Shown here: piece after piece, positions 1,859 through 61,769 of the stretch
How positions within the stretch are numbered: the first letter of the stretch is position 1
How the letters are laid out: each line of letters starts with the position of its first letter
Assembly: GCA_947503305.1 (NCBI GenBank)
Contig: CANNDF010000006.1
Location: forward strand, 186,001-250,000
DNA length: 64,000 nucleotides
Direction of reading: 5' to 3'
Source: an uncultured Dokdonia sp.
GTDB lineage: Bacteria; Bacteroidota; Bacteroidia; Flavobacteriales; Flavobacteriaceae
The notes under the pieces: generated by a model
Database searches by the model: none
The model's input: only the letters and a program-made list of their open reading frames with translations
Told to the model about the DNA's origin: nothing
Translations under genes and position numbers: made by a program

Positions 1859-1882
1859 AGTACGCTTTCGCGAAAGCATACT
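1859..1882. repeat. Dispersed palindrome, copy 1
   Basis: Core GCTTTCGCGAAAGC at 1864-1877 with AGTAC/ATACT flanks, giving a 24-base inverted repeat with a single mismatch. It lies between maeB and ruvA. No T-run follows it on either strand, so it does not look like an intrinsic terminator. Confidence 0.9.
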
Positions 1883-1960
1883 CATAGTAATCTCTATAAA
1901 TCTTAACTCCTATATGTAGAATATTTTCTTACATTTACGGGCTTAACATTAGATTAACAA

Positions 1961-2542
1961 ATGATTACTCATTTAAGGGGGAGACTAGTTGAAAAAAATC
2001 CAACCTATGTTGTTTTAGACTGCAATGGTGTTGGGTATTTTATCAATATATCCCTTCATACTTTTTCTTCACTTCCCAATGAAGAAAACTTACAATTGTA
2101 TACACATCTTCAAGTGAAGGAAGACAGTCATACATTATTTGGATTTATGGATGCTATGGAACGTGAGATATTCAGGTTATTAATCTCAGTGTCGGGGATA
2201 GGATCAAGCACAGCGAGGATGATGTTGTCTTCTTTGCATCCAGATCAAATAAAACAAGCCATTGCATCAAATGATGTAGTCACTATTCAGGGAATCAAAG
2301 GAATAGGAGCAAAAACAGCACAACGTGTTATTCTAGATTTAAAAGACAAGATTTTAAAGGTTTTCGATTTGGATGTTAATACAGCATTACAAAGCAATAC
2401 TAGTAAAGAAGAAGCGTTATCAGCATTAGAAACTTTAGGTTTTACACGTAAACAAGCCGATAAGGTTTGTGGACAAATACTTAAAGAGCAACCTGATGCC
2501 AGTGTAGAGACGATTATAAAAGAAGCATTAAAAAAACTATAG
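1961..2542 (+). CDS. ruvA: Holliday junction branch migration protein RuvA
   Basis: RuvA tetramers bind Holliday junctions and load the RuvB motor for branch migration. The 193-residue protein has the OB-fold N-terminus (MITHLRGRL, GVGY, LFGF) at residues 1-65. Two helix-hairpin-helix motifs follow (ISVSGIGSSTA and IQGIKGIGAKTAQRVI, about residues 75-125), then the small C-terminal RuvB-contacting domain with EALSALETLGF. The ATG follows a TAcaTTTA box about 25 bases upstream, a near match to the Bacteroidota -7 element. Its stop lies 7 bases before the sprA start, so the two are probably co-transcribed. RuvB is not in this window. Confidence 0.98.
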   Translation: MITHLRGRLVEKNPTYVVLDCNGVGYFINISLHTFSSLPNEENLQLYTHLQVKEDSHTLFGFMDAMEREIFRLLISVSGIGSSTARMMLSSLHPDQIKQAIASNDVVTIQGIKGIGAKTAQRVILDLKDKILKVFDLDVNTALQSNTSKEEALSALETLGFTRKQADKVCGQILKEQPDASVETIIKEALKKL

Positions 2543-2549
2543 GACCATT

Positions 2550-5500
2550 TTGGAGTCAAAATATTACTTGAAATTACGCACACTTTTATTATGTTTAACG
2601 AGTTTTCTCTTTTTTGGGATGCCTGTAGTTATGGCTCAAGAAGAAGAAAATCAAACAGAACAAGATTCTACAAGTATAGGATTTGCTTTAGGAGCCTTGT
2701 CATTACCAAACCCCGAGAGCATTGTATCAAAGTATACGTATGATCCAGAATTAGATCGTTATATCTATACAGAGCAACTAGGTACATTCAATATCAATTA
2801 CCCACTTATATTAACACCAGAAGAGTTTGAGCGTCGAGTACGTGATGAACGTATGAAGCAATATTTTAAAGAAAAGATTGCAGCACTAGATGGGCGTACT
2901 GAAGAAGGGAAAGAGGGTCAAAAAAGTCTATTGCCAGTTTTTTATGTCAAATCTGATTTATTCCAAACTATTTTTGGAGGAGATAAAATAGAATTTATCC
3001 CTCAGGGATCTGTAGAGATGGACTTAGGAGTTCTGTTTACAAAACAAGATAATCCTGCTTTTTCTCCTCGTAATCGTAGTAATTTAACCTTTGATTTTGA
3101 TCAACGTATTAGTTTAAGTTTATTAGGTAAAGTAGGAGAACGTTTACAGATTACCGCAAATTATGATACGGAGTCTACATTTGATTTTCAAAATCAAATC
3201 AAATTAGAATATACACCTACAGAAGATGATATCATCCAAAAAATTGAAGTAGGTAATGTAGCAATGCCTCTTAATAGCTCTTTAATTCAAGGATCTCAGA
3301 GTCTTTTTGGGGTTAAAACAGAATTACAATTTGGAAAAACGAGTGTAACTGCAGTATTTGCAGAAAATAGATCACAACCACGTACTGTAACTTCAGAAGG
3401 AGGTGCAACCGTTCAAGATTTTGAAGTTGCTGCTTTAGATTATGATGAGAATAGACACTTTTTCCTAGCACATTACTTTAGAGATAATTATGACGAATCG
3501 TTGGCTAATTATCCTTTTATTAATAATAATGTTCAAGTTACACGTATAGAAGTGTGGATTACGAACAGACAAAATCAAACTCAAAATGCGCGTAATATTG
3601 TAGCTATACAGGATATAGGAGAGGCAGACCCTACAAATATTGGATTGGATTTTCCACCATCAGGATTTATTAATGGAGCTCCTACAGCATTTCCAGACAA
3701 TAGCAATAATGATTTTAACCCCCGAGGGATTACAGATGGAAGTGTACAATCTGTCCTAACTCCAGCAATACGTGATGTAGCGACAGTACAGCAAGGTTTT
3801 GGAGGGGTGCAGGTAAGTGATGGTGTAGACTTTGTATTATTAGAAAATGCACGTAAACTAGAACCTAATCAATATACATTATATCCTCAGTTAGGGTATG
3901 TTTCTTTAAATCAACGATTGAATAATGATGAAGTACTAGGGGTTGCTTTTCAATATACTGTAGGTGGACAAGTATTTCAAGTAGGAGAATTTGCAAATGA
4001 TGGGGTAGAAGCAACCAACGGAGAACGTCCAGATGCCGATGGAGATGGTATTCCAGATATAGCAGATGCAGATAGTCCTGTTGTAAGACCAGATCAAGAT
4101 AATGATGGTATAGCAGATGATGCTGATGCCGATGTTAATGGAGATGGTATTTTAAATGATCAAGATGCTGATGGTAATGGAATAGATGACCAGATTATCC
4201 CTGCAGGTCAAGCAGGAAGCCCACAAAACCTTGTGGTAAAAATGCTTAAAAGTAATCTTACTAATGTAGAAGAGCCTGTATGGGATTTGATGATGAAAAA
4301 CATCTATCCTTTAGGAGCATTTTCACTAGAACAAGAAGGTTTTAGAATGAATATTGTATATGCAGATCCTTCGCCTCTTAACTTTATTACTCCAGTTGCA
4401 GGAGCAACATTGCCGACATTGTTTGATCCTAATAATGCAGCAGGAAGAGGGGATTTAGAGTCAAATACATTATTACAAATATTTAATCTAGATAGATTAA
4501 CATCTTTTGGAGATCCGCAGGTTGGTGGTGATGGGTTTTTTGATTTTGTTCCTGGTACGACTGTACACGTTCAGAATGGAAGTATTGTTTTTACAACGGT
4601 TGAGCCATTTGGAGAGCATTTATTTAATTTACTGAGAACAAATAATGGGTCAGAAAATTATGAAGATATAAATACGTTTAATCCACATCAGTCTTTCTAT
4701 GTATATGAAACACTATATAGTTCTACAAAAACTGTAGCCCGTGATAATGCAGAAAAGAATAAATTCTTATTAAAAGGAAGATATAAATCTACACAAGAAC
4801 AAGGTATACCCTTAGGTGCATTTAATGTACCTCAAGGATCTGTTACGGTAACTGCGGGAGGTCGGACCTTAGTAGAAGGATTGGATTATACTGTTAACTA
4901 TCAACTGGGGCGTGTTATTATCCTTGATAAATCTCTAGAAGCATCTGGAATTCCTATTTCAGCATCGGTAGAAAATAATGCAGTTTTTGGACAACAAAAT
5001 AAACGATTTACAGGGATTAATGTAGAGCATCAATTCAATGAAGATTTTATTATAGGAGGTACTTATTTGAATCTTAATGAACGACCCCTTACTCAAAAAG
5101 CAAGCTATAGTTTTGAACCTATAAATAATTCGATATTTGGAATTAATGCTAGTTACTCTACAGAAGTACCTTTCCTAACTCGTTTGGTAAATAAACTTCC
5201 TAATATTGATACAGATGCTCCTTCTAACTTCTCTATTCGAGGAGAGGCAGCCTATCTGTTACCAGGGCAACCTAAGGGAACCGATTTTAATGGAGAAGCA
5301 ACATCTTATATAGAAGACTTTGAAGCCGCACAAACTTCGATAGATGTGAGTAGTCCTTTGCAGTGGTTTTTATCATCTGTTCCAGATGGCTTTGGAGGCG
5401 AATTACCTAATGATGATATATCAAGTGGATTTAGACGAGCAAGTTTAGCCTGGTATTCTATAGATCCTGTATTTTATAATTCCCAACGTCCTTCGGGAAT

Positions 5501-8500
5501 TTCTGATTCTGACCTTTCGTTACCTGAAACACGTCGTGTATTTAGAGATGAGATTTTCCCAGAACAAGATATTGTTGCTGGACAGACTCAAGCATTATTT
5601 ACTTTAGATTTAGCTTATTTTCCTGGCGAGAGGGGACCTTATAACTTTAGTACAGATGCTCAAGATGGGACATTGACAAATCCAGATCAAAATTTTGGAG
5701 GTATTATGCGACAGCTTACATCTACAGATTTTGAACAAGCAAATGTAGAGTTTGTAGAATTCTGGTTACTAGATCCGTTTTTTGCAAATGGAGATACTAC
5801 AAATCCGGGAGGTAAATTAACATTTAACTTAGGAAGTATCTCTGAAGATATTCTTAAAGATGGCCGTAAGCAATATGAAAATGGTCTTCCAGCAGATGGA
5901 AGTACTACAGGAACAACAGCTACTAACTGGGGTAAAGTACCAACAAATCAATCGTTAATCTATGCCTTTGATACAGAAGGACAAGAACGTACCAATCAAG
6001 ATATTGGATATGATGGATTGAATGATGCTGAAGAAGCTGCTTTGTATCCAGGTTTTGCAGGCCTTCCAGATCCTGCAGGAGATAATTATAGTTTCTTTTT
6101 AAATACTCCAGGAGGAGTTGTAGATAGATATAGAAATTTTAATAATCAGCAAGGAAATTCTCCTGTAGATGTTGGTCAAACGGATAGAGGCTCTACTACA
6201 TTTCCAGATATAGAAGATATTAATCGTGATAATACGATGAATACTATAGATGCTTATTTTGAGTATGAACTTGATATCAATCCTCAGACACTTAGTATAG
6301 AGAATAATGAGTTTGTAACCGATGTTAGAGAACTCACTGTAACAACACAAGATGGATCTTCGCTTCCTACACGATGGGTTCAATTTCGGGTTCCTATAAA
6401 TCAATTTACAAATGTAGTAGGAGGGATTTCAGACTTTAGAGCTATCCGATTTATGCGTATGTATATGAGTGATTGGCAGAATGATATAGTGTTACGTTTT
6501 GGAACATTAGACTTGGTGCGAGGTGATTTTAGAAGGTATCTGTTAACATTAGATCCTAATGAGACTACTGAAATGAACGATGCAGATGATACACTATTTG
6601 AAGTAGCAGCAGTAAATATAGAGGCAAATGAAACACGTACTCCTGTTCCATATAACTTGCCTCCGGGTGTTGTGAGAGAGCGTCTCAATAATAACAATAA
6701 TAACATACGTCAGAATGAACAATCTTTATCGATTCGTGTAGACGGTCTTGAAGAACAAGATGCTCGCGGGGTTTATAAATACTATAACCTAGATATGCGT
6801 CAGTATAAAAACCTACGTATGTTTATGCATGCAGAAGCACTTGTAGAAGATGGGACAAGTGCCCTAGACGATGAGAATGTTATTGGATTCATACGTATGG
6901 GTACAGATTTAAATACTAATTTCTATCAAATAGAACTTGGACTTGAACCCACCCCTTTTAATGTTTCTCAAGGAGATCGTAATGCCATCTGGCCTGCTGC
7001 AAATGAGCTTAATCTCGATCTAGAAGTATTACAAATAGCTAAGGCTAGTATTATAGATTTACGAGCTAACCCACCAGCTGAGTTATCAAATTTTGATTTT
7101 GTAAATGATATCTTGTTTTTTGATGCTAATGGAGAATTTATTAATCCAGATGATTTCACTTGTCACGAGCAAGGAGAACTAAGGATAGGTATTAAAGGAT
7201 TGCCAAGTTTTGGAGATATTAGAACCCTTATGCTAGGGGTAAAAAATGGAAATCCTGAAGCAAATGTAGATGTTGGTTGTACACCAGGGGAAATAGGTGC
7301 TGAAGTCTGGTTTAATGAATTACGACTTTCAGATTTAAGTAATGATGGTGGTTGGGCAGCAATTGTAAATGTAGATGCAAATATTGCCGACTTTGCTACA
7401 GTATCTGCTACAGGTAGACAAAGCACAGTTGGATTTGGAAGTATAGAACAAGGACCTACCGAGCGTAGTTTAGAAGATGTTGTACAGTATGATGTGGTTA
7501 CTAATGTCAATGTGGGGCAATTATTACCTAAAAAATGGGGAATACAATTACCGTTTAATTATGCAATCGGGGAAGAAAGTATTACACCAAAATTTGATCC
7601 ACAGTTTTTAGACCTAGAATTAGATCAACGACTCGATAACGCTTCTACGGCGCAAGAAAGAGAAGACATAGAAGGGCAAGCTATTGATTATACAAGACGT
7701 AAGAGTATTAATTTTATAGGTGTACGTAAAGAAAGAACTACAGATAAAAAACCACAACCTTACGATGTAGAAAACCTTACGTTTACGTATTCATACAATC
7801 AAATAGATCATAAAGATTTTGAGATAGAACAATCAAGAGATCAAAATGTTCGATTAGGAGGAACCTATAGTTTTGATTTTCAAAATAAACCAGTGGAGCC
7901 TTTTAAAAAGAATGACTCATTATTTATGGGGAAATATTGGAAGTTTCTAAAAGACTTTAATTTCAATTACCTTCCTTCTAATGTGTCGGTGAGTTCTAAC
8001 ATAGTACGTCAGCGTAACGAACAAAAATTCAGGGATCTTTTAGCAAATGACGGAGATATAAGAATTCCTAGACTATTCCAGCGTAATTATCTTTTTGATT
8101 GGCAGTATAGTGTGAATTTCCCAATTACAAACAGTTTGCGATTTAATTATGATGTAAGTCATAATCGCATAATTCGTAATTATCTTGATGAAAATGGAGC
8201 CCCTAGTTTCTTAGATGAAAATGGTGATGAAATAGATGGTTTTGGAATTTATGATGGCTTTTTTGATGTAGGAGAAGCAAATACCCATTTTGGTACATTA
8301 CAGTTAAACTACGACCTTCCATTTGATAAATTTCCATTTTTAAATTGGATATCTAGCACATATTCATATACTGCAAATTATAGGTGGCAAAGAGGATCTC
8401 AACAATTTCAGACATTAGAAGGAATCCCTGATTTAGGAAACTCGGTAGAAAATGCAAATACCCATGCTATCAACGGAACCCTAGAAATGGATAAACTCTA

Positions 8501-10032: not shown

Positions 10033-10056
10033 AGTACGCTTTCGCGAAAGCACAAA
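10033..10056. repeat. Dispersed palindrome, copy 2
   Basis: Exact core GCTTTCGCGAAAGC at 10038-10051, with AGTAC on the left and an imperfect right flank (ACAAA). It lies in the 58-base gap between sprA and gcvH. Confidence 0.9.
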
Positions 10057-10899: not shown

Positions 10900-11625
10900 A
10901 TGGAACCCAAGAAAAATCCAAAAGCAGATCTCAGTAAGCGTAGTCTACTGTTTTTACAGTTAGGGCTTGTTGCTGTACTTCTCATTACGTACATTACTAT
11001 AGAATGGAAGACCTATGATAAAACAGATATCGATATTGGATTACTAAATGCCGATGATGATGATGAAGAAATTCCAATCGTAGAGTTAAACACACCACCA
11101 CCACCACCGCCACCGCCACCGCCACCAGCGCCAGAAATTATAGAAGTTGTAGAAGATGAAGAAGAAATAGAAGAAACTATTATAGAATCTACAGAGACTA
11201 CTCAAGACGAAGAAATTGTTGAAGTAGAAGAAGTAGAAGTTGCTGAAGAAGAGGAAGAAATTGCAGATGTTCCGTTTGCTGTTATTGAAAATGTTCCAAT
11301 CTTCCCAGGATGTGAAAATCAGAAAAACAACGATGCACGTAAGAAGTGTATGAGTGAGAAAGTAAGTAAACTTGTAAATAGAAAGTTTAATACAGAACTA
11401 GGTGCTGATTTAGGACTTAGTGGTGTAAATAGAATATTTGTAAGTTTTAAAATTGATAAAAAAGGAAATATTACAAATATCCGTTCGAGAGCACCGCACC
11501 CAAGATTAGAAACAGAAGCTGAGCGTGTGATTAAATTGCTTCCTAAAATGACTCCAGGAAAGCAACGAGGACAACCAGTAGGGGTTTTATACTCTCTACC
11601 TATTACCTTTAAAGTAGAAGATTAA
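10900..11625 (+). CDS. TonB family energy transducer (paralogue 1)
   Basis: TonB proteins pass proton-motive energy from ExbBD to outer-membrane receptors. The layout is a cytoplasmic N-terminus, one membrane helix at about residues 17-35, an acidic stretch, eleven consecutive prolines (66-76), a long Glu-rich spacer, and a C-terminal TonB domain from about residue 125. That domain begins NVPIFPGCE and holds a second cysteine (KKCMSEKV), so a disulfide is plausible. The next two genes share this domain signature. ExbB and ExbD are not nearby. The ATG is 53 bases after the VanZ stop. Confidence 0.95.
   Translation: MEPKKNPKADLSKRSLLFLQLGLVAVLLITYITIEWKTYDKTDIDIGLLNADDDDEEIPIVELNTPPPPPPPPPPPAPEIIEVVEDEEEIEETIIESTETTQDEEIVEVEEVEVAEEEEEIADVPFAVIENVPIFPGCENQKNNDARKKCMSEKVSKLVNRKFNTELGADLGLSGVNRIFVSFKIDKKGNITNIRSRAPHPRLETEAERVIKLLPKMTPGKQRGQPVGVLYSLPITFKVED
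11095..11127 (+). repeat. CCA/CCG triplet tract encoding eleven prolines
   Basis: Eleven consecutive CCA or CCG codons code for the proline run of the TonB spacer. Such simple triplet tracts can change length by slippage in whole codons, which would alter spacer length without a frameshift. Confidence 0.85.
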
Positions 11626-12585: not shown

Positions 12586-12648
12586 GTTTGATCTTTTTTA
12601 AATTTCAAAATCCCTATCTTTCGACAATTAATGCATAATACCTACCAT

Positions 12649-14775
12649 ATGCACAAATATTTACCCCTTCTTATTAGTATGTTAATGGCACTTTCCATGC
12701 ATGCACAGGTTACCCTTAGTGATTTTGAAAAATATCCTGTTTTTCCAGAATGTGAGACCGCTACTGTTGCACAATTGCCCAATTGTTTTAATGAAACCCT
12801 TATCACGTTTGTAATAGATACTTTTGAAATGCCAGAGAGAGTATCTCAAGAACAATACCAAGGACAAATGGTTATGTTATTTGAAGTAACAGCAGAAGGA
12901 AATTTTAAATTATTATACACAGATGCTGTATATAATGAGTTGAAAGAAGAAGCGCAGGAAGTATTTGATAAACTTCCAAAAATTCAACCTGCAACCTATA
13001 ATGGAGAAGCTACCTATATACAGTTTTCTATGCCTGTTAAAATTCCGCTTTCGCGAAATAAAATAGAAGACTTTATAGCAGAAGGGAAAACACAAATTGA
13101 TGAAAGGAATACAAAAGATGATATAAAAGAGAATCCTTTAAAACAAGAATTTGATAAAATTCAGAATCAAGAATTTGATCGAAAAAACAAATACGAGAGT
13201 CAACTCAATATCCCTTTTTCTCACCAAGTGTATAGTCGTTTTGATGAACAACTTAATATGGTAGGAACTAATAATCATACGGGAAGTAAACCATTTTTGT
13301 ATAGCACAGTAAACCCATATTATAATTTTGAAGAAAAAGCAGATGCTTTGTCAAAAAATAAAAAAGGATGGTGGGGACGTAAGTGGCATGATGAACATAT
13401 GGTTCGGCTACAAGGAGAAGATTATTGGATTACAATAGACCCAGCTGCTGACTTGCAATTAGGTACAGAAACAGATGATAGAAAGGAAGAATCGTTTACA
13501 TATAATAATACCCGCGCTGTTTTTGTGCAGGGAGGGTTAGGGAAGAAACTCAATTTTTTTGCGGCCGTTTATGAGAGTCAGGGAAGATTTGCACAATACT
13601 TCAATGATTTTGCTGTATCGTTACGACCAGATGGTGGAAATCCTGCAATTATACCTAGTAGAGCTATCGCAAAAGAAGGTAGGAATGGGGATTTTGATTA
13701 TCCCGTTGCCGAAGGCTATATATCTTATGCACCTAGCAAGTATTTTAATATACAATTAGGGCATGGAAAACAATTCATAGGAGATGGATATCGATCACTA
13801 TTATTAAGTGATAATGCTACCTATTATCCCTATTTGAAATTAAATACAACTTTCTGGAAAATCAAATACACAAATACATGGACATCTTTAAGAGATGTGC
13901 GTCCTGAGGTTACTCAAGATGGATCATTTCTCACCAAGTTTATGGCAAACCATTATCTAAGTTGGAATGTGACAAAAAAATTAAACTTAGGTTTTTTTGA
14001 ATCGGTGATATGGGAAAATGATAATGGAAGAGGGTTTGATTTTAATTTTTTAAACCCAGTTATTTTCTTTAGAGCAATAGAGTTTTCTACGGGATCTAGA
14101 GGTGGAAATGCATTGATTGGATTGACTGGGAAATATAAAATAAACGATCGCATAAATGTATATGGACAATTAGTTATTGATGAATTTTCAGCATCGGCTA
14201 TAACTGGTGGCGATCAAAATTTTAGAAATAAGCAAGGGTTTCAATTAGGGGCTAAATATTACAATGCTTTTGGGGTAAAAAACTTAACATTGCAAGCAGA
14301 ACTTAACCAAGTGAGGCCTTATGTATATTCTAATAATGAGATACAACTTAACTACGGGCATGCAAATCAATCATTAGCGCATCAATGGGGAGCAAACTTT
14401 AGAGAGTTTATAGCAATTGCCAGATATGAATATGAACGTTGGTATGGGAGTGCAAAAGTTATTGCTGGAACCCAAGGAGCAGAAATAGGAGATATTAATG
14501 AGGTTTATTTTGGAGGAAGCATTTATGGGAATGATGAAAATAGACCTAGCGATAATGGTATTGAATTATTTCAGGGAAATAAAGTAACGCGATTATTTGC
14601 AGATGTTGAAGTGGGATACCTTATTAATCCGGCAACAAATCTAAAAGTATATGTAAATCCTATCTATAGGGATTTTAGTGCAGAGACTCAAACAGCAGAT
14701 ACTTTTGATACAAATACCTTATGGCTCAATATAGGGTTTAGAACTGATTTATTTAATTGGTATTATGATTACTAA
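12649..14775 (+). CDS. remB: RemB-like gliding motility outer-membrane protein with N-terminal TonB-C-like domain
   Basis: Resembles RemB of gliding flavobacteria, an outer-membrane protein needed for normal gliding; the symbol is assigned by recognition and is tentative. A signal peptide (MHKYLPLLISMLMALSMHAQ) is followed at about residues 25-145 by a domain starting YPVFPECE with a second cysteine (PNCF), the same pattern as in the two TonB genes upstream. From about residue 190 the protein is a Wzi/capsule-assembly-like barrel (GHGKQFIGDGYRSLLLSDN) ending in aromatic FNWYYDY. ATG 12649 is chosen because it begins the signal peptide; ATG 12631 is also in frame. A TAtcTTTC box lies at 12614-12621. 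A partial palindrome copy codes for PLSRNK. Confidence 0.82.
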   Translation: MHKYLPLLISMLMALSMHAQVTLSDFEKYPVFPECETATVAQLPNCFNETLITFVIDTFEMPERVSQEQYQGQMVMLFEVTAEGNFKLLYTDAVYNELKEEAQEVFDKLPKIQPATYNGEATYIQFSMPVKIPLSRNKIEDFIAEGKTQIDERNTKDDIKENPLKQEFDKIQNQEFDRKNKYESQLNIPFSHQVYSRFDEQLNMVGTNNHTGSKPFLYSTVNPYYNFEEKADALSKNKKGWWGRKWHDEHMVRLQGEDYWITIDPAADLQLGTETDDRKEESFTYNNTRAVFVQGGLGKKLNFFAAVYESQGRFAQYFNDFAVSLRPDGGNPAIIPSRAIAKEGRNGDFDYPVAEGYISYAPSKYFNIQLGHGKQFIGDGYRSLLLSDNATYYPYLKLNTTFWKIKYTNTWTSLRDVRPEVTQDGSFLTKFMANHYLSWNVTKKLNLGFFESVIWENDNGRGFDFNFLNPVIFFRAIEFSTGSRGGNALIGLTGKYKINDRINVYGQLVIDEFSASAITGGDQNFRNKQGFQLGAKYYNAFGVKNLTLQAELNQVRPYVYSNNEIQLNYGHANQSLAHQWGANFREFIAIARYEYERWYGSAKVIAGTQGAEIGDINEVYFGGSIYGNDENRPSDNGIELFQGNKVTRLFADVEVGYLINPATNLKVYVNPIYRDFSAETQTADTFDTNTLWLNIGFRTDLFNWYYDY
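13047..13058. repeat. Dispersed palindrome, partial coding copy 3
   Basis: GCTTTCGCGAAA matches the first 12 of 14 core bases, inside the RemB-like gene, read in the frame giving L-S-R. It may be a decayed or emerging copy. Confidence 0.55.
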
Positions 14776-18271: not shown

Positions 18272-18291
18272 GCTTTCGCGAAAGCGAATAA
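18272..18291. repeat. Dispersed palindrome, copy 4
   Basis: Exact core GCTTTCGCGAAAGC at 18272-18285 with TTT/GAA flanks, in the 142-base gap between the two subunit III genes and upstream of the second gene's promoter. Confidence 0.9.
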
Positions 18292-21885: not shown

Positions 21886-22139
21886 TGAAAAGGCAGTGGA
21901 TTATATTGGTTTTTATTTTTGTTACCGCTTTTGCGAAAGCTGACCCGGTCCCAATACCTACTATGGCTACACAATGCGCAATGTGTAGAGCCGTACTAGA
22001 ATCTGAAGCAGATAATAGTACAGCAAAAGGAGTAAATAATGGAATTAAATACCTTATGGTGATTCCATATATTCTTGTCGGAGGTGTTTTTTACTTTATT
22101 TATAAGGGTCGAAAAAAAGAGAAAAAAGAGATTCTTTAA
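21885..22139 (+). CDS. Small CxxC membrane protein of the oxidase assembly operon
   Basis: 84 residues, starting at the ATG that overlaps the DUF420 stop (a longer open frame upstream is not the real start). A signal peptide MKRQWIILVFIFVTAFAKA is followed by MATQCAMCRAVLES with a CxxC pair, one membrane helix (YLMVIPYILVGGVFYFIY) and a basic tail. The signal-peptidase region A-F-A-K-A is encoded by a palindrome copy. I infer a redox or metal-handling accessory role from the CxxC and operon position; no family function is known to me. Confidence 0.85.
   Translation: MKRQWIILVFIFVTAFAKADPVPIPTMATQCAMCRAVLESEADNSTAKGVNNGIKYLMVIPYILVGGVFYFIYKGRKKEKKEIL
21927..21940. repeat. Dispersed palindrome, coding copy 5 (one mismatch)
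   Basis: GCTTTTGCGAAAGC differs by one base from the core. It is read as A-F-A-K-A at the predicted signal-peptidase site of the small CxxC protein. Confidence 0.75.
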
Positions 22140-24247: not shown

Positions 24248-24267
24248 TACGCTTTCGCAAAAGCGTA
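24248..24267. repeat. Dispersed palindrome, copy 6 (one mismatch)
   Basis: TACGCTTTCGCAAAAGCGTA: a 20-base palindrome with one mismatch in the core (24251-24264). It lies in the 81-base gap between the two permease genes. Confidence 0.82.
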
Positions 24268-26806: not shown

Positions 26807-26830
26807 GGTACGCTTTCGCGAAAGCAAACT
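26807..26830. repeat. Dispersed palindrome, copy 7
   Basis: Exact core GCTTTCGCGAAAGC at 26812-26825 with GTAC on the left and AAACT on the right, in the gap between adaptor 1 and tolC. Confidence 0.9.
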
Positions 26831-31273: not shown

Positions 31274-33388
31274 TTATTTGTCTATTAATGTAAGTGCTTC
31301 CTCTACTGTTCTTACAGGGAGTTTACATGCATTATTTACACAAACATAAATAAGTGTTTCTCCTTCTAGATATCGTCCTTCAAAAATTTCCTGATTGGTC
31401 TGAGAAAGACTTGCAGCTATAAGCTTATTTGGCAGATAACGTGTGTTTAATTGAGTAAGAACTTCCTTAGCTTCAGGGCCTACAATGACAAGTTCATAAT
31501 ATGGATTTGTATAATTAAGAAGTAGGTCTAACCAATTACTGCAACTTGAAGGATATTTATCTATTTCTAATTGAATATTATTAAGCATAGCTGCAGCTGT
31601 CTTTGTATACTCCCGATTTAGATAATAATGCGACAATGTAAAGATGTTTTTTGCCATCATAGAATTAGATGCAGGAATCACATTGTCTAAATATTCTGTA
31701 CTACGGCTTACAAGACTAGTATCTTCATTTGATGTAAAGAAAAACATGCTATTGTTCTTATCTTGAAAATGCGTAAACGTGTAGTCAGTTAAGCTTTTTG
31801 CTCTTTCTAACCATACGATATCTGTGGTTACCTCAAAAAGAGCAATAAACGCATCTATAGTACTTGCATAATCTTCTAGATATGCATTGATACTACTTTT
31901 ACCATTCTTATAATTTCTATTGAGTCCACCATCTTTTCGAAGCATTTTTGAAACAATAAGATTTGCGTTTTTAAGAGCAATGTCTAAGAAATTTTGGTCA
32001 TTAAAAACTCGATATGCGTCTATATATCCTTTGGTCATAAGGCTATTCCAGCCTGTTAGTATTTTGTCATCTAGGCGTGGCCGTTCTTTATTGCTTTCGC
32101 GAAAGCGTAATAAACCTTCTTTCCACTTATCTTTCTTAGATTTTAAATCTTTGAGGGATATCTCATTTTCTTTTACAAATGTTGTGTCTGCATCTTGTCT
32201 GATGAGGACATAGTTTTCTTTTTCCCATTTTCCGTAATTATTGATATTGTAATATTCTGAAAAAAGATCAAAATCCGAACCTATTATATTTTCTAACTCT
32301 TCTTTTGTCCATACATAATAGGCACCTTCTTCTAACTCGCCTTCTGGAGTAAGACTATCTGCGTCTAATGCACTATAAAATCCTCCTTCATCTGTAGTCA
32401 TTTCCCTAGATATAAATGCTAGCGTTTGATATACAGTCTCTTTATATAATTCATTTTTTGTTGCGAGATAAGCATCACTATATAAACTTACAAGTTGTGC
32501 ATTGTCATAAAGCATTTTTTCAAAATGCGGAATATGCCATTTGGTATCTGTACTATACCTTGCAAAACCACCTCCTGTATGATCGTTTACACCACCATAA
32601 GCAATCTGTTCTAGTGTTGTATTTACATATTCCAAAAGCTCTTGGTCTTCTTTTTGCATAGCATAGCGTAGTAAGAAGTGATAATTGTTAGGCATCATAA
32701 ACTTGGGAGCTCTATTAGGCCCTCCTTGACGTGTATCCCATGATCGTGACCATGTTGCGAGTGCACTGTTTATAGTTTCTTCTTCAAACCTCGGGGAGTT
32801 AGGATTTGGTTTGACAAGATCCATTGATTTTATACCTGACGTTAGTTTTTCAGCATATTCAACAAGTTTATTAGGGTCTTCCTTATAGATAGTTGCTACT
32901 TGCTCTAATGCATCTGTCCAATCCTCTTTTGGAAAATAAGTACCTCCCCATATTGGTCTCCCATCTGGGAGTGCAATAGCATTGAGTGGCCAGCCTCCTC
33001 GCCCTGTCATAAGTTGTACGGCACTCATATACACATTATCTACGTCAGGACGTTCTTCCCTATCTACTTTTATATTGATAAAATTTGCATTCATAAAATC
33101 TGCAACAATAGAGTCTTCAAAGCTTTCTTTTTCCATAACATGACACCAGTGGCATGAAGAATACCCTATACTTACCAGAATCAGTTTGTTTTCTTTTTTT
33201 GCTTGGGCTAATGTTTCATTACTCCATGGTTTCCAATTTACAGGATTATGTGCATGTTGAAGAAGATAAGGACTTGTCTCATGAATGAGATCGTTTGTAT
33301 AATCATGCATAGCGGTATCGTTCTGACCTTTGCAACTCCATATTAAAAGCGCAATACTTAATACTAAAAATGGGTACCATAGTTTCAT
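31274..33388 (-). CDS. DUF255 thioredoxin-like lipoprotein (YyaL/SSP411 family)
   Basis: 704 residues. A lipoprotein signal ends LLIWSC (Cys19). The first domain (about 30-190) is the DUF255 thioredoxin-like fold with [14 protein letters not shown] and [10 protein letters not shown]. The remainder is an alpha/alpha barrel like N-acylglucosamine 2-epimerases ([34 protein letters not shown]). The biochemical function of the family is not established. Most relatives are cytoplasmic, so a lipidated version is notable. A palindrome copy (32093-32106) codes for F-R-E-S inside it. Confidence 0.92.
32093..32106. repeat. Dispersed palindrome, coding copy 8
   Basis: Exact core GCTTTCGCGAAAGC, read in the minus-strand gene as F-R-E-S within [16 protein letters not shown], just before the family's conserved RP.LDDK motif. 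The reading frame is undisturbed. Confidence 0.92.
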
Positions 33389-34839: not shown

Positions 34840-35118
34840 ATGAAGAAAATCCTACTTTTCTTGTCTTTATTGGTATATAATATACATGCTTTCGCTAAAG
34901 CATATATACGATCTTATACGAATATGATAAAAAGTTACTTTTCTACATATAATAGAGTATCCTCCGATATTATTATACCTGTTAAATTGGAGGGCTTTAA
35001 TACAAAAATTTATATATTTGAACATTATGCTATAGGGGTTGTATATCCTGCATTTGCGGGGAGGCTTCAATTTTTAAATTCTCAGTCTAAACAAAAACCT
35101 ATAGCGTTACTAAAATAA
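34840..35118 (+). CDS. Orphan small secreted protein upstream of PorP/SprF
   Basis: 92 residues with a convincing signal peptide (MKKILLFLSLLVYNIHAFAKA) and a mature part of about 71 residues of no family I recognise. It has VSSDIIIPVKLEGFNTKIYIFE and the end QSKQKPIALLK; no cysteine or membrane helix. The signal-peptidase region is coded by a palindrome copy. The next gene starts 6 bases after its stop, so it is probably the first gene of a two-gene unit. It could be a real small partner protein or the remnant of a longer gene. Confidence 0.6.
   Translation: MKKILLFLSLLVYNIHAFAKAYIRSYTNMIKSYFSTYNRVSSDIIIPVKLEGFNTKIYIFEHYAIGVVYPAFAGRLQFLNSQSKQKPIALLK
34888..34901. repeat. Dispersed palindrome, coding copy 9 (one mismatch)
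   Basis: GCTTTCGCTAAAGC differs from the core by one base and has symmetric AT/AT flanks. It is read A-F-A-K-A at the signal-peptide end of the small secreted protein. Confidence 0.75.
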
Positions 35119-36134: not shown

Positions 36135-36189
36135 CAATACAAACAAAAAAGCTCGATTGAATTTCAATCGAGCTTTTTTGTTTGTATTG
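36135..36189. terminator. Bidirectional terminator, 55-base perfect inverted repeat
   Basis: 27-base arms are perfectly complementary around a single central T. The inner arm is GCTCGATTGAA/TTCAATCGAGC, and the outer parts are A-rich and T-rich runs that serve as T-tracts in both directions. It sits between convergent porP/sprF and ompA genes. Confidence 0.93.
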
Positions 36190-41524: not shown

Positions 41525-42346
41525 TCAAAAATCTTTATATTGTGTTTTTAATACTATGTTTTTAGGTAAAAGTTCGCTTTCGCGAAAGCGAACCATAATT
41601 CTATCTAAAGTCTCAATACGAGCATTAGAATATAAACGATGCATTGTATGATCTTGAATTGTGTTTTTTGAAAGCAACCCGTGTTGTGTTAATACTGTTT
41701 TTGTCTGCTTTGCAACAGCTTCTCCAGAATCTATAATGGTAACGCCATATGGAAGGATTTCTTTAATAATAGGGGCTAAGAATGGATAATGGCTACATCC
41801 CAATACAAGGTAATCTATATTTGCTTTGATCATAGGAGCAAGATAAGTGATGAGCAACTCTTTTATTTCCGAACTATCCATCTTTCCCTGTTCAATCAAT
41901 GGTACAAGCCCAGTACCAATTACCTCTATAACGTCAATTTCCTGAGTATAACGTTCGGAAGTAACAGAAAATAAAGAGCTGTTTAAAGTGCCTTTTGTAG
42001 CAAGAATACCAATGGCTTTATTTTGAGATTGAAGAGCAGCTGGTTTAATAGCAGGTTCTATACCTATAAAAGGTACTTCGTAGTTTGCTCTCAAATATTC
42101 AATAGCATTTGTTGTGGCAGTATTACATGCTACAACGATGATTTTTGCTCCTAGATCCAAAAGAACTTCTGTGTTTTTAATACACAATTGGATAATTTCT
42201 TCCTTAGGCTTTGCTCCATAGGGAGCATATTTGCTATCTGCTAGATAAATAGAAGATTCTTGAGGTAATAGTTGTATAATCTCTCTCCATATAGAAGTAC
42301 CTCCTACACCACTATCAAATACGCCTATAGGATTATTGTATTGCAT
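41525..42346 (-). CDS. murI: Glutamate racemase
   Basis: Makes D-glutamate for peptidoglycan in the cytoplasm. 273 residues with the two catalytic cysteines in VVACNTATTNA (Cys74) and VLGCSHYPFL (Cys184), plus FDSGVGGTSI and the dinucleotide-like DSKYAPYGAKP segment. The C-terminal tail includes F-R-E-S-E, encoded by a 22-base perfect palindrome copy. Last gene of the envelope block, separated from ompH by a terminator. Confidence 0.97.
   Translation of the reverse strand: MQYNNPIGVFDSGVGGTSIWREIIQLLPQESSIYLADSKYAPYGAKPKEEIIQLCIKNTEVLLDLGAKIIVVACNTATTNAIEYLRANYEVPFIGIEPAIKPAALQSQNKAIGILATKGTLNSSLFSVTSERYTQEIDVIEVIGTGLVPLIEQGKMDSSEIKELLITYLAPMIKANIDYLVLGCSHYPFLAPIIKEILPYGVTIIDSGEAVAKQTKTVLTQHGLLSKNTIQDHTMHRLYSNARIETLDRIMVRFRESELLPKNIVLKTQYKDF
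41572..41593. repeat. Dispersed palindrome, coding copy 10
   Basis: A perfect 22-base palindrome: core GCTTTCGCGAAAGC (41576-41589) with GTTC/GAAC flanks. It lies inside the 3' end of murI and is read F-R-E-S-E. Confidence 0.93.
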
Positions 42347-48113: not shown

Positions 48114-48137
48114 AGTTCGCTTTCGCGAAAGCATACT
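48114..48137. repeat. Dispersed palindrome, copy 11
   Basis: Exact core GCTTTCGCGAAAGC at 48119-48132 within AGTTC/ATACT flanks, in the 159-base gap between DUF6089 and nadK and upstream of the DUF6089 promoter. Confidence 0.9.
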
Positions 48138-50537: not shown

Positions 50538-51304
50538 TGCAGTTGCATTCTAATATAATAGGAGAAGGTTTTCCTTTAATCATTCTTCATGGGTTTTTAG
50601 GAATGGGTGATAATTGGAAAACTCTGGCAAGACAATTTGCTATAAAAGGATACCAAGTTCATCTTGTTGATCAACGTAATCACGGTCGAAGTTTTCATAG
50701 TGATGATTTTAACTATGCCCTTATGGCAGAAGACTTAAGGGATTACTGTGAGTCGATGCATATTTTAGAGTGTGCAATTATAGGGCATTCTATGGGTGGA
50801 AAAACGGCAATGTTGTTTGCCACAACATACCCTGAATATGTCCATAAACTTATTGTTGCAGATATTGCTCCAAAATACTATCCTCAACATCATCAAACGA
50901 TTTTAGAAGGTATGAAAGCATTGTCAGAAAATGATATTGCCTTAAGGGCAAGGAAAAGTGCTGACACATTTCTTTCTACGTATGTTTCAGATTTTGGGAC
51001 TCGACAGTTTTTATTGAAAAATCTTTTTTGGATAGAAAAAGGGAAGCTAGGGCTTCGAGTACATCTTCAGGGTTTAATAGATAATATAGAACATATAGGA
51101 GAGGCACTTCCCAGTATGTCTTATTTTGAAAAACCTACATTATTTTTAAAAGGATCTAAATCTGATTATATTTTGGAAGAAGATCATAAATTGATTGAAT
51201 CTGCTTTCGCGAAAGCAAAAATCACTACAATTTCTAATGCTGGACATTGGTTACATGCCGAAAATCCTGCAGATTTTTACACGGAAGTGATAAATTTTTT
51301 ATAA
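50537..51304 (+). CDS. Alpha/beta-fold hydrolase (YbfF-like esterase)
   Basis: 255 residues of an alpha/beta hydrolase: oxyanion loop LHGFLGMGDNW, nucleophile elbow IGHSMGGKTAM (the catalytic serine, about residue 83), acid near KGSKSDYI, and catalytic histidine in NAGHWLHAENP. Closest in pattern to YbfF-type esterases acting on small acyl esters. It starts within the pdxJ stop codon (TAATG). A palindrome copy (51203-51216) codes for A-F-A-K-A in a variable helix before the histidine loop. Confidence 0.94.
   Translation: MQLHSNIIGEGFPLIILHGFLGMGDNWKTLARQFAIKGYQVHLVDQRNHGRSFHSDDFNYALMAEDLRDYCESMHILECAIIGHSMGGKTAMLFATTYPEYVHKLIVADIAPKYYPQHHQTILEGMKALSENDIALRARKSADTFLSTYVSDFGTRQFLLKNLFWIEKGKLGLRVHLQGLIDNIEHIGEALPSMSYFEKPTLFLKGSKSDYILEEDHKLIESAFAKAKITTISNAGHWLHAENPADFYTEVINFL
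51203..51216. repeat. Dispersed palindrome, coding copy 12
   Basis: Exact core GCTTTCGCGAAAGC, read A-F-A-K-A within ESAFAKAKITTI of the esterase. No frame disturbance. Confidence 0.92.
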
Positions 51305-56178: not shown

Positions 56179-56210
56179 GCGTTTTACTTGAAAAGGTAAA
56201 ACGCTTTTTT
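56179..56210 (+). terminator. Terminator after tig
   Basis: Stem GCGTTTTAC/GTAAAACGC (loop TTGAAAAG) followed by six T, 32 bases past the stop. Confidence 0.9.
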
Positions 56211-56237
56211 ATAACATAAATAATTGCGTTAATTTAT

Positions 56238-56912
56238 ATGGACTACGGAAAAGAGTTTAAAAATTTTGCTATAAAGGATCAAGGAATTAGTTCTACCTAC
56301 TATGAGAAAATAGTTAGTAGTATGACTCCTATGGGTCTTACACCTAATATTATAGAAGAACGTCAAATGAATATTGCCATATTTGATGTTTTTTCACGTT
56401 TAATGATGGATCGTATTATTTTTTTAGGTACGGGAATAAATGATCAAGTTGCCAATATTGTACAGGCTCAATTACTATTTTTGGAAAGTACAGATGCGAG
56501 TAAAGATATTCAGATTTATATAAATTCTCCAGGGGGGAGTGTATATGCAGGTTTAGGTATTTACGATACAATGCAGTTTATAAAACCAGATGTTGCAACC
56601 ATCTGTACAGGAATGGCAGCTTCAATGGGAGCAGTACTTTTATGTGCAGGAGAGAAAGGAAAACGTAGTGGATTACCACACTCTAGAGTTATGATACACC
56701 AACCTATGGGAGGAGCTCAGGGTCAGGCAAGTGATATAGAAATTACTGCTAGAGAAATATTAATCTTAAAAGAAGAGCTTTATAAAATTATAGCAAAGCA
56801 TTCTGGTCAAGATTATGATAAAGTATATGCAGATAGTGATCGTGACTACTGGATGAAGGCAGATAAAGCACTTGAATACGGTATGATAGATGAAATTTTA
56901 AAAAGAGATTGA
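56238..56912 (+). CDS. clpP: ATP-dependent Clp protease proteolytic subunit
   Basis: Forms the 14-subunit proteolytic chamber fed by ClpX. 224 residues. Catalytic Ser129 lies in GMAASMGAVL and His154 in VMIHQPMGGAQGQASD; the Asp is expected in the DRDYWM region. An N-terminal extension of about 30 residues compared with E. coli is probably a propeptide. INSPGGSVYAG is the typical substrate strand. The clpP-clpX gap contains the most perfect palindrome copy. Confidence 0.97.
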   Translation: MDYGKEFKNFAIKDQGISSTYYEKIVSSMTPMGLTPNIIEERQMNIAIFDVFSRLMMDRIIFLGTGINDQVANIVQAQLLFLESTDASKDIQIYINSPGGSVYAGLGIYDTMQFIKPDVATICTGMAASMGAVLLCAGEKGKRSGLPHSRVMIHQPMGGAQGQASDIEITAREILILKEELYKIIAKHSGQDYDKVYADSDRDYWMKADKALEYGMIDEILKRD

Positions 56913-56924
56913 TGTATGAGCGTA

Positions 56925-56948
56925 AGTACGCTTTCGCGAAAGCGTACT
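56925..56948. repeat. Dispersed palindrome, copy 13 (24-base perfect)
   Basis: Core GCTTTCGCGAAAGC (56930-56943) with AGTAC/GTACT flanks: a perfect 24-base palindrome with no loop and no T-run, in the 58-base clpP-clpX gap. Confidence 0.95.
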
Positions 56949-56970
56949 ACGTCTATTAATATGTAATACA

Positions 56971-58203: not shown

Positions 58204-58225
58204 AAATATAAATATTTATATAGTC

Positions 58226-58255
58226 AAAAAGCCACTACATGTAGTGGCTTTTTTA
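58226..58255 (+). terminator. Terminator after clpX
   Basis: Stem GCCACTAC/GTAGTGGC within A-runs and T-runs, 23 bases past the stop. Confidence 0.92.
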
Positions 58256-58353
58256 TGTAGGATACCCTACACATAAAAGACAGCTATCAATCCCCCAATT
58301 GATAACTGCTTTCTAATGCAACAAATAGAAATTTGTTAGTAATATGGTTTTAA

Positions 58354-59970: not shown

Positions 59971-60220
59971 TAAATATATTATGAAGTCCGGGGTGTATAG
60001 GTACGAAAGTAGATGTCGTTCATCTTATTTAAAAATTTTTTAATACTTTTTAGATAAGATGATATTTTTAATCGTTAAACAGCAAGAAGAAATGAATTAT
60101 ACCTTCCTAATTTAATAGGTATTTTGAGTAATAGACAATAATTACTTGCAAAAAATTCAATAAAACCTCCTTTTTTTCATGTATAATTTAAAATACAAAG
60201 GCTGTGATCGTAATTAAGGG
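59971..60220. other. 250-base gap between OmpA/PD40 gene and GH3 gene
   Basis: AT-rich with no open frame of note, no terminator-like hairpin and no recognisable RNA. It probably holds the OmpA/PD40 promoter. The largest gap in the window. Confidence 0.6.
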
Positions 60221-61735
60221 TCAGCGATTTAGAAGAAGTAATTCGTTTACAAAATCTCTTTTGTTTGATAATCTAGGCACTTTATGTTGTCCTCCTAACT
60301 TATTATTTGCTTTAAGCCAGTCATAAAATAAATCTTCGCGAGCTGTATGTATTTTAGGAGGGTTAAGCGTTGTATTATTAAAACGCTTTGCTTCATAATC
60401 ACTATTAACTTCCTGTAGTGCTTTATCGAGAATGGTATTGAAAGCACTCATATTTGCAGGAGGTTTCTTAAATTCAATGATCCATTCATGAGCCCCTTTT
60501 TCCTTCCCTTCCATAAAAACCGGAGCCGCTGTATAATCTTTGATTTCACTTTGAGTGGCTTTTGTAGCGTTACGGAGTGCTTCTTCTGCATTTTCAATAA
60601 TAAGTTCTTCTCCAAAAACATTAATATGATGTTTGGTTCTTCCACTTACTTTAATCCTATAAGGACTTATGGATGTAAAACGTACAGTATCTCCTATTTT
60701 ATATCTCCATAATCCAGCATTAGTAGTAATAACAACAGCATAATTTTTATGTAAAACGACTTCATCTAGTGGGATTATCTTTTGGTGAGAAGTCCCATAG
60801 GTATCCATAGGGATAAACTCATAAAAAATTCCGTAATCAAGCATGAGAAGAAGTTCATTACTATCATTGCTATTTTGTATTGCAAAAAAGCCTTCAGAAG
60901 CATTATAAATCTCATAGTATTTAAAGCTATCTCTAGGTAAAATGTTTTTATATTGATTAATATAAGGCTCAAAGCTTACGCCTCCATGAAAGTAAACTTC
61001 AAGGTTGGGCCAAACCTCAAATAAGTGATTTTTTCCTGTTGTTTCTAGTACATTATTGAGGAGTACTAGCATCCATGAGGGTACTCCTGCAAGACTTGTA
61101 ACATTTGCTTGAATTGTTTCATCTACGATTGCTTGCATTTTTATCTCCCAATCACTGAGTAGGGATACATCATTATTTGGAGTACTACTAAATTCTGCCC
61201 AAAAAGGCATATTATCTATTAAAATAGCCGAAAGGTCCCCATAGATAGTGCCATTATTTTCATAGAGTTCCTTACTTCCTCCTAATCGTAATCCTTTTCC
61301 TTTAAATAAATGAGAATCCGGATTATTATTTAAATAAACACACAATAAATCTTTACTTGCTGCATAATGACAATCTTCTAGAGATTCATGACTTACTGGG
61401 ATATACTTACTTCTTGCATTGGTAGTTCCGCTGCTTTGTGCAAACCATTTTATAGGGGTAGGCCATAAAATATTATTTTCTCCTTTACGACTACGTTCTA
61501 TATAAGCTTGATTATCTTCATAAGAGGTAATAGGGACAGCTTGGGTAAATTGATCATAATTTTTTATCTCCTTAAAACCATATTTTTTACCAACTTCTGT
61601 ATCTTTTGCTTTGTCTAATAATTGATATAATAATTCATTCTGAACTTCTTGCGGGTATTTCATAAAAAGTTCCATCTGGTGGATACGTTTTTTAAGAAAC
61701 CAAGAGGCAATAGAATGTACTAAAGGGATAGGCAT
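60221..61735 (-). CDS. GH3 family acyl-adenylating enzyme
   Basis: 504 residues matching the GH3 auxin-responsive family, an acyl-acid-amido synthetase fold. Motifs: WFAQSSGTTNARSKYIPVS (ATP-binding, about 85-105), YEIYNASEGFFAIQ (about 280) and YRIKVSGRTKHHINVFGEELI. In plants it conjugates hormones to amino acids; bacterial members exist in Bacteroidota but their substrate is unknown to me. Palindrome copy 14 ends its 5' leader. Confidence 0.93.
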   Translation of the reverse strand: MPIPLVHSIASWFLKKRIHQMELFMKYPQEVQNELLYQLLDKAKDTEVGKKYGFKEIKNYDQFTQAVPITSYEDNQAYIERSRKGENNILWPTPIKWFAQSSGTTNARSKYIPVSHESLEDCHYAASKDLLCVYLNNNPDSHLFKGKGLRLGGSKELYENNGTIYGDLSAILIDNMPFWAEFSSTPNNDVSLLSDWEIKMQAIVDETIQANVTSLAGVPSWMLVLLNNVLETTGKNHLFEVWPNLEVYFHGGVSFEPYINQYKNILPRDSFKYYEIYNASEGFFAIQNSNDSNELLLMLDYGIFYEFIPMDTYGTSHQKIIPLDEVVLHKNYAVVITTNAGLWRYKIGDTVRFTSISPYRIKVSGRTKHHINVFGEELIIENAEEALRNATKATQSEIKDYTAAPVFMEGKEKGAHEWIIEFKKPPANMSAFNTILDKALQEVNSDYEAKRFNNTTLNPPKIHTAREDLFYDWLKANNKLGGQHKVPRLSNKRDFVNELLLLNR

Positions 61736-61749
61736 AAAGTTGGTATATT

Positions 61750-61769
61750 TACGCTTTCGCGAAAGCTAA
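61750..61769. repeat. Dispersed palindrome, copy 14
   Basis: Exact core GCTTTCGCGAAAGC at 61753-61766 with TAC on the left and an imperfect TAA on the right, between the divergent GH3 and DUF2797 genes and within 15-20 bases of the GH3 start codon. Confidence 0.92.

Follow-up and report, generated by a model that had tools for sequence, protein, structure and literature searches.

The window analyzed here, a 64,000-nucleotide stretch of DNA from an uncultured Dokdonia sp., carries ten exact copies of the 14-bp palindrome GCTTTCGCGAAAGC in and between its open reading frames (ORFs). The initial annotation had reported these copies together with three one-change copies and one partial copy, and all of them were recovered in place, the partial copy displaying two changes (Table 1). 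Allowing for up to two mismatches, the window contained 14 matches in comparison to a mean of 0.06 in shuffled sequences, and none of 100 shuffles reached 14.

Table 1. Copies of the palindrome in the window and their position relative to ORFs or state in other genomes
Feature	Position	Strand	Context
Exact palindrome	1864..1877	.	Starts 21 bases past end of ORF 41-1843; equivalent locus carries the exact word in 12 of the 17 Dokdonia genomes aligned (this one among them)
Exact palindrome	10038..10051	.	Starts 16 bases past end of ORF 2550-10022; exact word in 12 of the 17 Dokdonia genomes aligned (this one among them)
Copy altered at both bases of one end	13047..13060	.	Within ORF 12631-14775; same change type as 31 copies in G001
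Exact palindrome, intergenic	18272..18285	.	Starts 36 bases past end of ORF 17655-18236
Copy changed at center (position 6, C to T)	21927..21940	.	G001 counterpart exact
Copy changed at center (position 9, G to A)	24251..24264	.	G001 counterpart exact
Exact palindrome, intergenic	26812..26825	.	Starts 48 bases past end of ORF 25601-26764
Exact palindrome	32093..32106	.	Within ORF 31274-33388 (- strand)
Copy changed at center (position 9, G to T)	34888..34901	.	Flanked by divergent ORFs
Exact palindrome	41576..41589	.	By 3' end of ORF 41525-42346 (- strand); 52 bases past end of ORF 40787-41524
Exact palindrome, intergenic	48119..48132	.	65 bases past end of - strand ORF 48197-49081
Exact palindrome	51203..51216	.	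Within ORF 50537-51304, by its 3' end
Exact palindrome, intergenic	56930..56943	.	Starts 18 bases past end of ORF 56238-56912
Exact palindrome	61753..61766	.	Flanked by divergent ORFs

The flanks had been described as often extending the symmetry to 20 to 24 bp. This extension is real but graded, with C at -1 in 64%, A at -2 in 53%, and T at -3 in 79% of the cases (both ends of the sites of the window's own genome pooled). From 4 to 19 bases out, the left flank is C-poor and the right flank is G-poor, with a fairly sharp edge at 19. A long imperfect hairpin was rejected, since the complementarity of the flanks matched the expectation from composition.

Counts beyond the window disposed of two possibilities, namely, that the copies were confined to it and that their genome-wide number was close to the Markov expectation. 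The 4.26-Mb genome from which the window originates contains 570 exact copies (~134 per Mb) and no copy of the reversed word used as a control, and all 18 Dokdonia genomes contain 369 to 905 copies (~130 to 275 per Mb). An 850-kb sample of the window's own genome (C6:1-250000 plus C1:1-600000) contained 121 exact copies versus expectations of 0.0006 for a Markov model of order 3 and 0.42 for a model of order 5, which already includes the 6-mers of the word. Thirty randomly rearranged palindromes yielded no exact copy and two one-change copies in total. Chance, base composition, and assembly artifacts were rejected on the basis of the shuffled, Markov, reversed, and rearranged controls and of the genus-wide counts. 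The overall density is one copy per 3.6 to 7.5 kb; it reached 0.269 and 0.278 per kb in two distant chromosome regions of the sister species G001, and no ori/ter bias was seen in the chromosome regions read; an apparent strand pattern was set aside as a probable truncation effect. In the 850-kb sample, 71 of the 121 copies are located in ORFs and 50 in noncoding DNA, which accounts for ~10% of the sequence.

The copies of the window's own genome are much more evenly spaced than expected by chance. Only 3 of the 119 spacings in the 850-kb sample (121 copies) were shorter than 2 kb, versus a mean of 33.5 and a minimum of 21 in 2,000 simulations of the null model, and the coefficient of variation (CV) was 0.46 (two spacings of >20 kb omitted) versus a null minimum of 0.73. 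The spacing is less even in G001 (CV of 0.51 to 0.69, depending on the region), where 14 of 228 spacings were shorter than 1 kb versus 55 expected at random. Exact sites having another one within 1 kb amounted to 2 of 121 in the window's own genome and 28 of 232 in G001. Neither the even spacing nor the skew of the flanks had figured in the initial annotation.

Perfect and singly mismatched copies were present in ratios of 121:25 in the window's own genome and 232:15 in G001, i.e., of the 247 G001 copies carrying no more than one change, 232 are perfect. Copies with two changes are not uncommon (21 and 42, respectively). None of the 25 one-change copies of the window's own genome is modified at the central GC and a single one is modified in the TTT/AAA blocks. 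Changed copies follow the spacing of the exact ones. In the window's own genome, variants changed at the center never had an exact site within 1 kb (0 of 27, versus 27% of random places), and variants changed at one end rarely did in G001 (2 of 31, versus 52% of random places). Such distances are equally expected of exact sites that have decayed in place and therefore do not demonstrate that changed copies function; gap filling as a proof that they work was dropped. The one-change copies are not noise: those at 21927 and 24251 have exact counterparts in the sister species.

Copies stay at the same loci across diverged species. Of the 13 G004 sites spanned by an alignment with G007, 12 were identical in the latter, and the words at the two differing loci differed through substitutions. 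At 77% identity, all 7 spanning G004 sites were exact in G001, versus 7 of 160 control 14-mers, and 7 of 11 sites were exact in the reverse comparison, versus 15 of 252 control 14-mers. The mfd site is unchanged in G002, G003, and G202, has a single altered base in G001, and is decayed in G000. As judged from these few loci, the copies turn over by point substitution rather than by transposition, and the word seems to be decaying in one species.

Among 299 genomes sampled in the family, hundreds of copies were found only in Dokdonia, in the adjoining g186, and in Nonlabens. Nonlabens is on a branch separate from Dokdonia and g186 in a tree of Mfd, a single-gene tree of 38 rows, of which 12 are word-rich, 5 of these (four named Nonlabens plus BBFL7) being labeled by genus without a whole-genome count. 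None of 200 bootstrap trees displayed a single change of word state. In six word-poor genomes, screened in samples of 20 to 120 kb picked partly around their few copies, no palindrome occurring 10 times or more on both strands stood out except pieces of GCTTTCGCGAAAGC. Three nonpalindromic words stood out in the word-poor genome G225.

A 63.5-kb gap in the window's own genome, chosen because it lacks the word and the sole gap examined, turned out to be an ICE-like island of the conjugative type, with a T4SS coupling protein and an integrase among the 10 proteins scanned. Together with the absence of any copy from two Nonlabens phages (35.7 kb), this small sample suggests that the word may be scarce in recently acquired DNA. 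In further searches, viral contigs mostly contain single copies among the matches listed, and a plasmid search with a 101-base piece surrounding the copy at 10038 gave no match. Neither the 14-mer nor the 12-mer occurred in the papers searched, and no description of the word was found in the titles and abstract beginnings covered. The 10-mer occurs in ten of the papers, among them PMC8034619, the accessible part of which deals with human absent words.

Together, the word looks like a maintained mark of self DNA, not an accident or a jumping element. The maintained word proposed initially is well supported by genome- and genus-wide presence, orthologous retention, turnover by point mutation, and even spacing, although its likening to HIP1 or to a methylation site is weakened by the 14-bp length, the skewed flanks, the density of ~130 to 275 per Mb, and the distances kept between copies. 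An uptake sequence would be the best of the options then listed. We tentatively favor, with somewhat less than even confidence, the view that GCTTTCGCGAAAGC is a maintained site for a sequence-specific double-stranded-DNA-binding protein, acting most likely as a self-recognition word for DNA uptake. A putative protein would read GCTTTCGCGAAAGC in double-stranded DNA and would call for a site every few kilobases along the chromosome. During natural transformation, this protein would mediate uptake of fragments carrying at least one site, and recombination with incoming fragments would restore and spread the site. The recognizer may have been acquired separately by the Dokdonia-g186 and Nonlabens lineages or transferred between them. 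More tentatively still, and with the chances rather against it, the reader of the self-DNA word could have been shared by horizontal transfer between Dokdonia and Nonlabens, after which each lineage would have filled its genomes with the identical 14-mer, placed at nearly regular intervals and at loci of its own. If so, these genera may have a common "language" for DNA exchange. Alternatively, the word may be ancestral to both lineages and lost in between.

The presence of ComEC is in favor of uptake, but the protein was found in each of the 14 genomes tested, irrespective of their word content, and therefore does not discriminate the word-rich genomes. Also in favor, the flavobacterium Riemerella columbina is transformed preferentially with its own DNA, for which no word is proven according to the available text of PMC7965970. 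On the other side, divergence showed no trend with distance to the site in two pairs of close relatives; thus, no signature of recombination was seen. No uptake experiment in Dokdonia or Nonlabens was found in the titles and abstract beginnings searched. The number of two-change copies and the nonpalindromic nature of established uptake words also speak against this reading.

The main rival, which we consider unlikely although deserving of serious attention, is that the site anchors a chromosome-organizing protein (nucleoid, topology, or SMC related) that binds as a dimer to the palindrome halves and is needed every few kilobases. The perfect dyad symmetry, the uniform density along the chromosome, the sparing of the central GC and TTT/AAA blocks in one-change copies, and the skewed flank with its fairly sharp edge 19 bases out are in agreement with such an anchor, and the even spacing fits a chromosome-structuring site equally well. 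However, 63.5 kb without a site are tolerated, and 369 to 905 copies greatly exceed the numbers of matS- or Noc-type sites. Sites of the parS, Noc, and matS types are palindromes of 13 to 16 bp bound by dimers; their copies number in the tens, and their placement depends on the region of the chromosome. The TTT-AAA distance is 6 in parS and Noc sites but 4 here. A single ParB_N protein was detected in each of eight word-rich genomes, as in five of seven others; an additional ParB/Noc paralogue was therefore rejected.

Much less probable is a Chi-like function, in which the palindrome would stop or tame a helicase-nuclease of the RecBCD/AddAB type, in both directions owing to its symmetry. The density is close to that of Chi, and each strand is rich in G/T and poor in C on the 5' side of the word, the type of strand preferred by RecA. 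Known Chi sites are nevertheless shorter (5 to 8 bases), asymmetric, and strand-biased, and to our knowledge even spacing is not one of their features. We give slightly less credence again to a HIP1-like word linked to a DNA methyltransferase, and we know of no enforced spacing for HIP1. The cyanobacterial HIP1, GCGATCGC, is an 8-bp word linked to methyltransferases and, as described in the accessible portion of PMC4390886, is palindromic, iterated, lineage-bound, and strongly biased at its variable positions, all as observed here. Against this likeness, a 14-bp word with skewed flanks would make an unusually long target for a methyltransferase, and ~134 copies per Mb compare with 500 to 2,500 per Mb for HIP1-type words (same source).

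Mobilization as a REP-type repeat by a Y1 (RAYT) transposase is hardly credible. The word is a short palindrome present in hundreds of lineage-bound copies, and Y1_Tnp matches were detected in both Nonlabens genomes tested (six and two), with a copy of the word in both 3.3-kb loci surrounding the best matches, although this is about what the host density predicts. For Dokdonia, this explanation was rejected because no Y1_Tnp match was present in the four genomes tested (G000, G001, G004, and G008), nor was there any in G202, whereas four of seven word-poor genomes had one; in addition, 71 of 121 copies are in ORFs, copies change through substitution, and near neighbors are avoided rather than paired. 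A role at gene ends as a transcription terminator or RNA hairpin deserves equally little belief: despite the noncoding enrichment, the closeness to the upstream stop (60 bases or less) of 27 of the 34 sites flanked by codirectional genes, and the ability of the 22-mer to fold back, it was rejected as a general role because TTTT followed within 12 bases at 1 of 52 gene-end positions (10.7% at random) and most copies are inside ORFs, and pairing of the flanks did not exceed the prediction from composition.

Few bacterial families have well-established iterated self-words, and the purpose and origin of these words are an old question. The signatures of GCTTTCGCGAAAGC in these marine bacteria are unusually clear (14 exact bases, high perfection in G001, enforced spacing, two separate lineages with the same word, and a species in which the word seems to be decaying), thereby rendering selection versus drive, uptake versus chromosome structure, and transfer of the recognizer directly testable. 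The word also offers a concrete oligonucleotide for fishing out the recognizing protein.

Among known systems, parS, Noc, and matS sites are palindromes of similar length, but GCTTTCGCGAAAGC is present in hundreds of copies at uniform density and differs from parS and Noc in inner spacing. Chi is similar in density and in being an exact word, but is short, asymmetric, and strand-biased. REP/RAYT elements are also short dispersed palindromes, but Dokdonia has no Y1_Tnp match, and its copies turn over by substitution, are mostly in ORFs, and do not form pairs. HIP1 is likewise a highly iterated palindrome with a disputed function and position-specific tolerance, but is 8 bp long, several-fold denser, and methyltransferase-linked (PMC4390886, in the part available). 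Unlike the uptake words USS of the Pasteurellaceae and DUS of the Neisseriaceae, GCTTTCGCGAAAGC, a candidate uptake word, comes from another phylum and is a 14-bp perfect palindrome, established uptake words being nonpalindromic according to the text available of PMC1939737. It is also sparser (one per 3.6 to 7.5 kb versus ~1 kb in Haemophilus influenzae; PMC7811141, available part) and has fewer singly changed copies per perfect copy. The uptake words of H. influenzae are evenly spaced, 65% of them are in ORFs, and 1,471 perfect copies compare with 764 singly mismatched copies (PMC1939737, same part). USS, DUS, and GCTTTCGCGAAAGC have in common hundreds to >1,000 lineage-bound copies that are evenly spaced, often located in ORFs yet enriched in noncoding DNA, and turned over by point mutation, with a deficit of singly changed copies.

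Every copy of the 14-bp palindrome GCTTTCGCGAAAGC that the initial annotation had placed in the window was found at its position (10 exact, 3 with one change and 1 with two changes), and these 14 matches within two mismatches compare with 0.06 expected. The excess over chance that it had supposed also extends beyond the window. In the whole genome (hereafter the own genome; 4,264,867 bp in 57 contigs) the exact word occurs 570 times and the reversed word never, 850 kb of this genome contain 121 exact copies versus a Markov expectation of 0.0006 to 0.42, and all 18 genomes of the genus, including this one, contain 369 to 905 copies. With the half-site randomly rearranged 30 times, no exact palindrome was found. 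The word is real, strongly maintained, evenly spaced and genome-wide. Because the own genome contains fewer copies per Mb (134 versus about 272 in G001, another Dokdonia genome) and one-change copies account for more of its total than in G001, it looks as if maintenance were weaker there.

Near neighbors are avoided. Only 3 of 119 spacings in the own genome were below 2 kb, versus 33.5 in a null preserving the coding/non-coding split (minimum over 2,000 runs, 21), and the coefficient of variation was 0.46, two spacings above 20 kb being omitted (null mean, 0.87; minimum, 0.73). G001 shows the same avoidance (14 of 228 spacings below 1 kb versus 55 expected; 56 below 2 kb versus 97 expected) but is less even, with a uniform density (0.269 per kb at 2.93 to 3.29 Mb and 0.278 at 1.30 to 1.70 Mb). 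Another exact copy lay within 1 kb for 2/121 exact copies in the own genome and 28/232 in G001. Changed copies keep similar distances from exact ones (0/27 centre-class copies within 1 kb in the own genome versus 27% of random positions; 2/31 end-class copies in G001 versus 52%) and therefore belong with them to one spaced set. Such copies may remain functional or be exact sites decayed in place; the data fit both.

According to a simple ORF caller, 71 of the 121 own copies lie in ORFs, encoding AFAKA (frame 0, 36 copies), FRES (frame 1, 21 copies) or LSRK (frame 2, 14 copies). The 50 intergenic copies compare with about 10% non-coding DNA. Between codirectional genes, 27 of 34 copies lie at most 60 bases past the stop. 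A reading as terminators was rejected, T-runs 3' of the sites being rare (1/52).

The word is seemingly read by a protein recognizing double-stranded DNA, because it combines a symmetric exact core, position-specific tolerance and a bounded flank. At positions -4 to -19 of the 121 own copies, the frequency of C is mostly 0.02 to 0.09 (0.15 at -8) versus 0.17 overall, and the right flank is the G-poor mirror image. This skew is present within and between ORFs, at 38 Nonlabens/BBFL7 sites and, slightly weaker (0.02 to 0.13), at 219 G001 sites. Flank pairing does not exceed the composition expectation. The nearest flank (TTAC in G001, [TG]TAC in the own genome, TT[TCA]C in Nonlabens) differs slightly, mainly at -2. 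The 25 one-change copies of the own genome, which also has 21 two-change copies, are altered at positions 6/9 (n = 16), 2/13 (n = 5), 1/14 (n = 3) and 5/10 (n = 1) and nowhere else. The common changes are not the same in G001 (232 copies exact, 15 with one change and 42 with two), where 31 of the 42 two-change copies have both bases of one end altered. So uneven a pattern would not be expected of even decay, yet GC-to-AT mutation bias contributes somewhat.

Sites persist in diverged DNA. When the first 12.5 kb were aligned across 17 genomes (the own genome and 16 of the 17 other genus members), the sites at 1864 and 10038 each proved exact in 12/17, in intergenic DNA that is barely alignable, and the 7.5-kb ORF separating them contains the word in 0/17 rows. 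Between the Dokdonia genomes G001 and G004 (77.2% identity in aligned DNA), 7/7 G004 sites with a spanning alignment were exact in G001 (control 14-mers, 7/160), as were 7/11 in the reverse comparison (control, 15/252). G004 and G007 (93.6% identical) have 12 of 13 spanning sites in common; at two differing loci substitutions altered the word, with a one-base gap outside it at one locus. Comparison of the own genome with 12 relatives gave 1 to 4 spanning alignments apiece, with exact as well as lost sites. A site in mfd (L338 to L342), encoding AFAKA within a variable stretch, is intact in D. pacifica, one further Dokdonia genome (G003) and one genome of another genus (G202), one base off in G001, and, the own genome aside, missing from all other rows of 36. 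In the own genome it has decayed, leaving the peptide fossil FAK (SFAKT versus AFAKA in sister species). It is present in 0/7 Nonlabens rows, 5 of which contain the word at another place in the retrieved locus.

The word was present in 60 of 299 family genomes (230 genera), with 408 to 857 copies in five genomes from three genera and 0 to 19 in the remaining 294. In the phylum sample, 22/394 genomes had any copy (maximum, 6 outside the own genome). Dokdonia and Nonlabens dominate among the matches listed for named genomes, unrelated phyla having single copies. An Mfd tree (38 rows, one gene) places Dokdonia and a word-rich neighboring genus (g186) apart from Nonlabens, and 0/200 bootstrap trees had a single change, 5 of the 12 word-rich rows being so labelled from genus rather than copy count. 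Leeuwenhoekiella groups with Dokdonia; a genome adjoining it (G159) has 9 copies.

In word-poor genera, the scarce copies are often clustered, with a recurrent 933-base spacing, often as pairs. In one genome (G225, L325) a copy falls within the ORF of an efflux gene, with conjugation genes some kilobases away. Two copies in an Aquimarina contig (L070) occupy a gene for an efflux-type outer-membrane protein that lies upstream of one for a multicopper oxidase. These genes were named from their translations. Such copies are probably passengers of a transferred resistance island. By reading, one L070 copy encodes AFAKA in an apparent signal peptide. G225 stretches L324 to L327 contain further over-represented 10-mers, GACGTTAACG, CGGTCTGGAC and CGTTAACGAC.

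The 63.5-kb gap in contig C1 (L164 to L167), chosen for lacking the word, is on sequence grounds an ICE-like island: among 10 proteins scanned were a T4SS coupling protein (PF02534) and a phage-type integrase (PF00589), and it also encodes a sulfate permease and a 1,410-residue DUF6443/M91-domain protein. Nonlabens phages P12024S and P12024L contain no copies, versus about 7 each expected at host density (664 copies in 3.3 Mb).

Features located in the window or in contig C1 of the own genome (G000)
Location	Feature	Remark
Window 2550-10022	ORF, 2490 aa	Presumably gliding/secretion protein SprA
Window 11090-11130	CCACCACCGCCACC tract within ORF 10900-11625	Matches several sister-genome places; probably low-complexity coding rather than a second iterated word
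Window 36135-36189	Long inverted repeat, A-tract before, T-tract after	Matches its own reverse; looks like a strong two-way terminator
G000:C1:173358 and 173595	Exact copies of the word	Sole exact pair <1 kb apart in 850 kb, directly upstream of mfd
G000:C1:326186-389711	Word-free gap, 63.5 kb	ICE-like
G000:C1:747504-823769	Word-free gap, 76 kb	

Minimum-density coverage, placement regardless of gene context and the lack of copies in the foreign DNA examined match the expectation for an uptake word, which would be kept up by uptake plus recombination. Against this tentative reading stand the palindromy, the failure to find a receptor, the absence of a recombination signal around the sites (local divergence versus distance to site, in two pairs of close relatives) and the presence of ComEC in every genome tested, word-rich or not. 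A role as a chromosome-structuring anchor, which we retain as the less likely alternative, accounts for the spacing as well as uptake does. The word is of a known kind, the iterated self-word, but in a new place and form; no earlier account was found in the literature searched, including for its letters. For the uptake reading, published reports provide several comparisons. Competence is possible in flavobacteria, with preference for own DNA (PMC7965970), word spacing in Neisseria matches conversion fragments (PMC2397512), and Haemophilus influenzae uptake words lie about 1 kb apart (PMC7811141). The H. influenzae words parallel the palindrome in that they too are evenly spaced, a similar share of them lies in ORFs, and copies with a single mismatch are scarce (PMC1939737).
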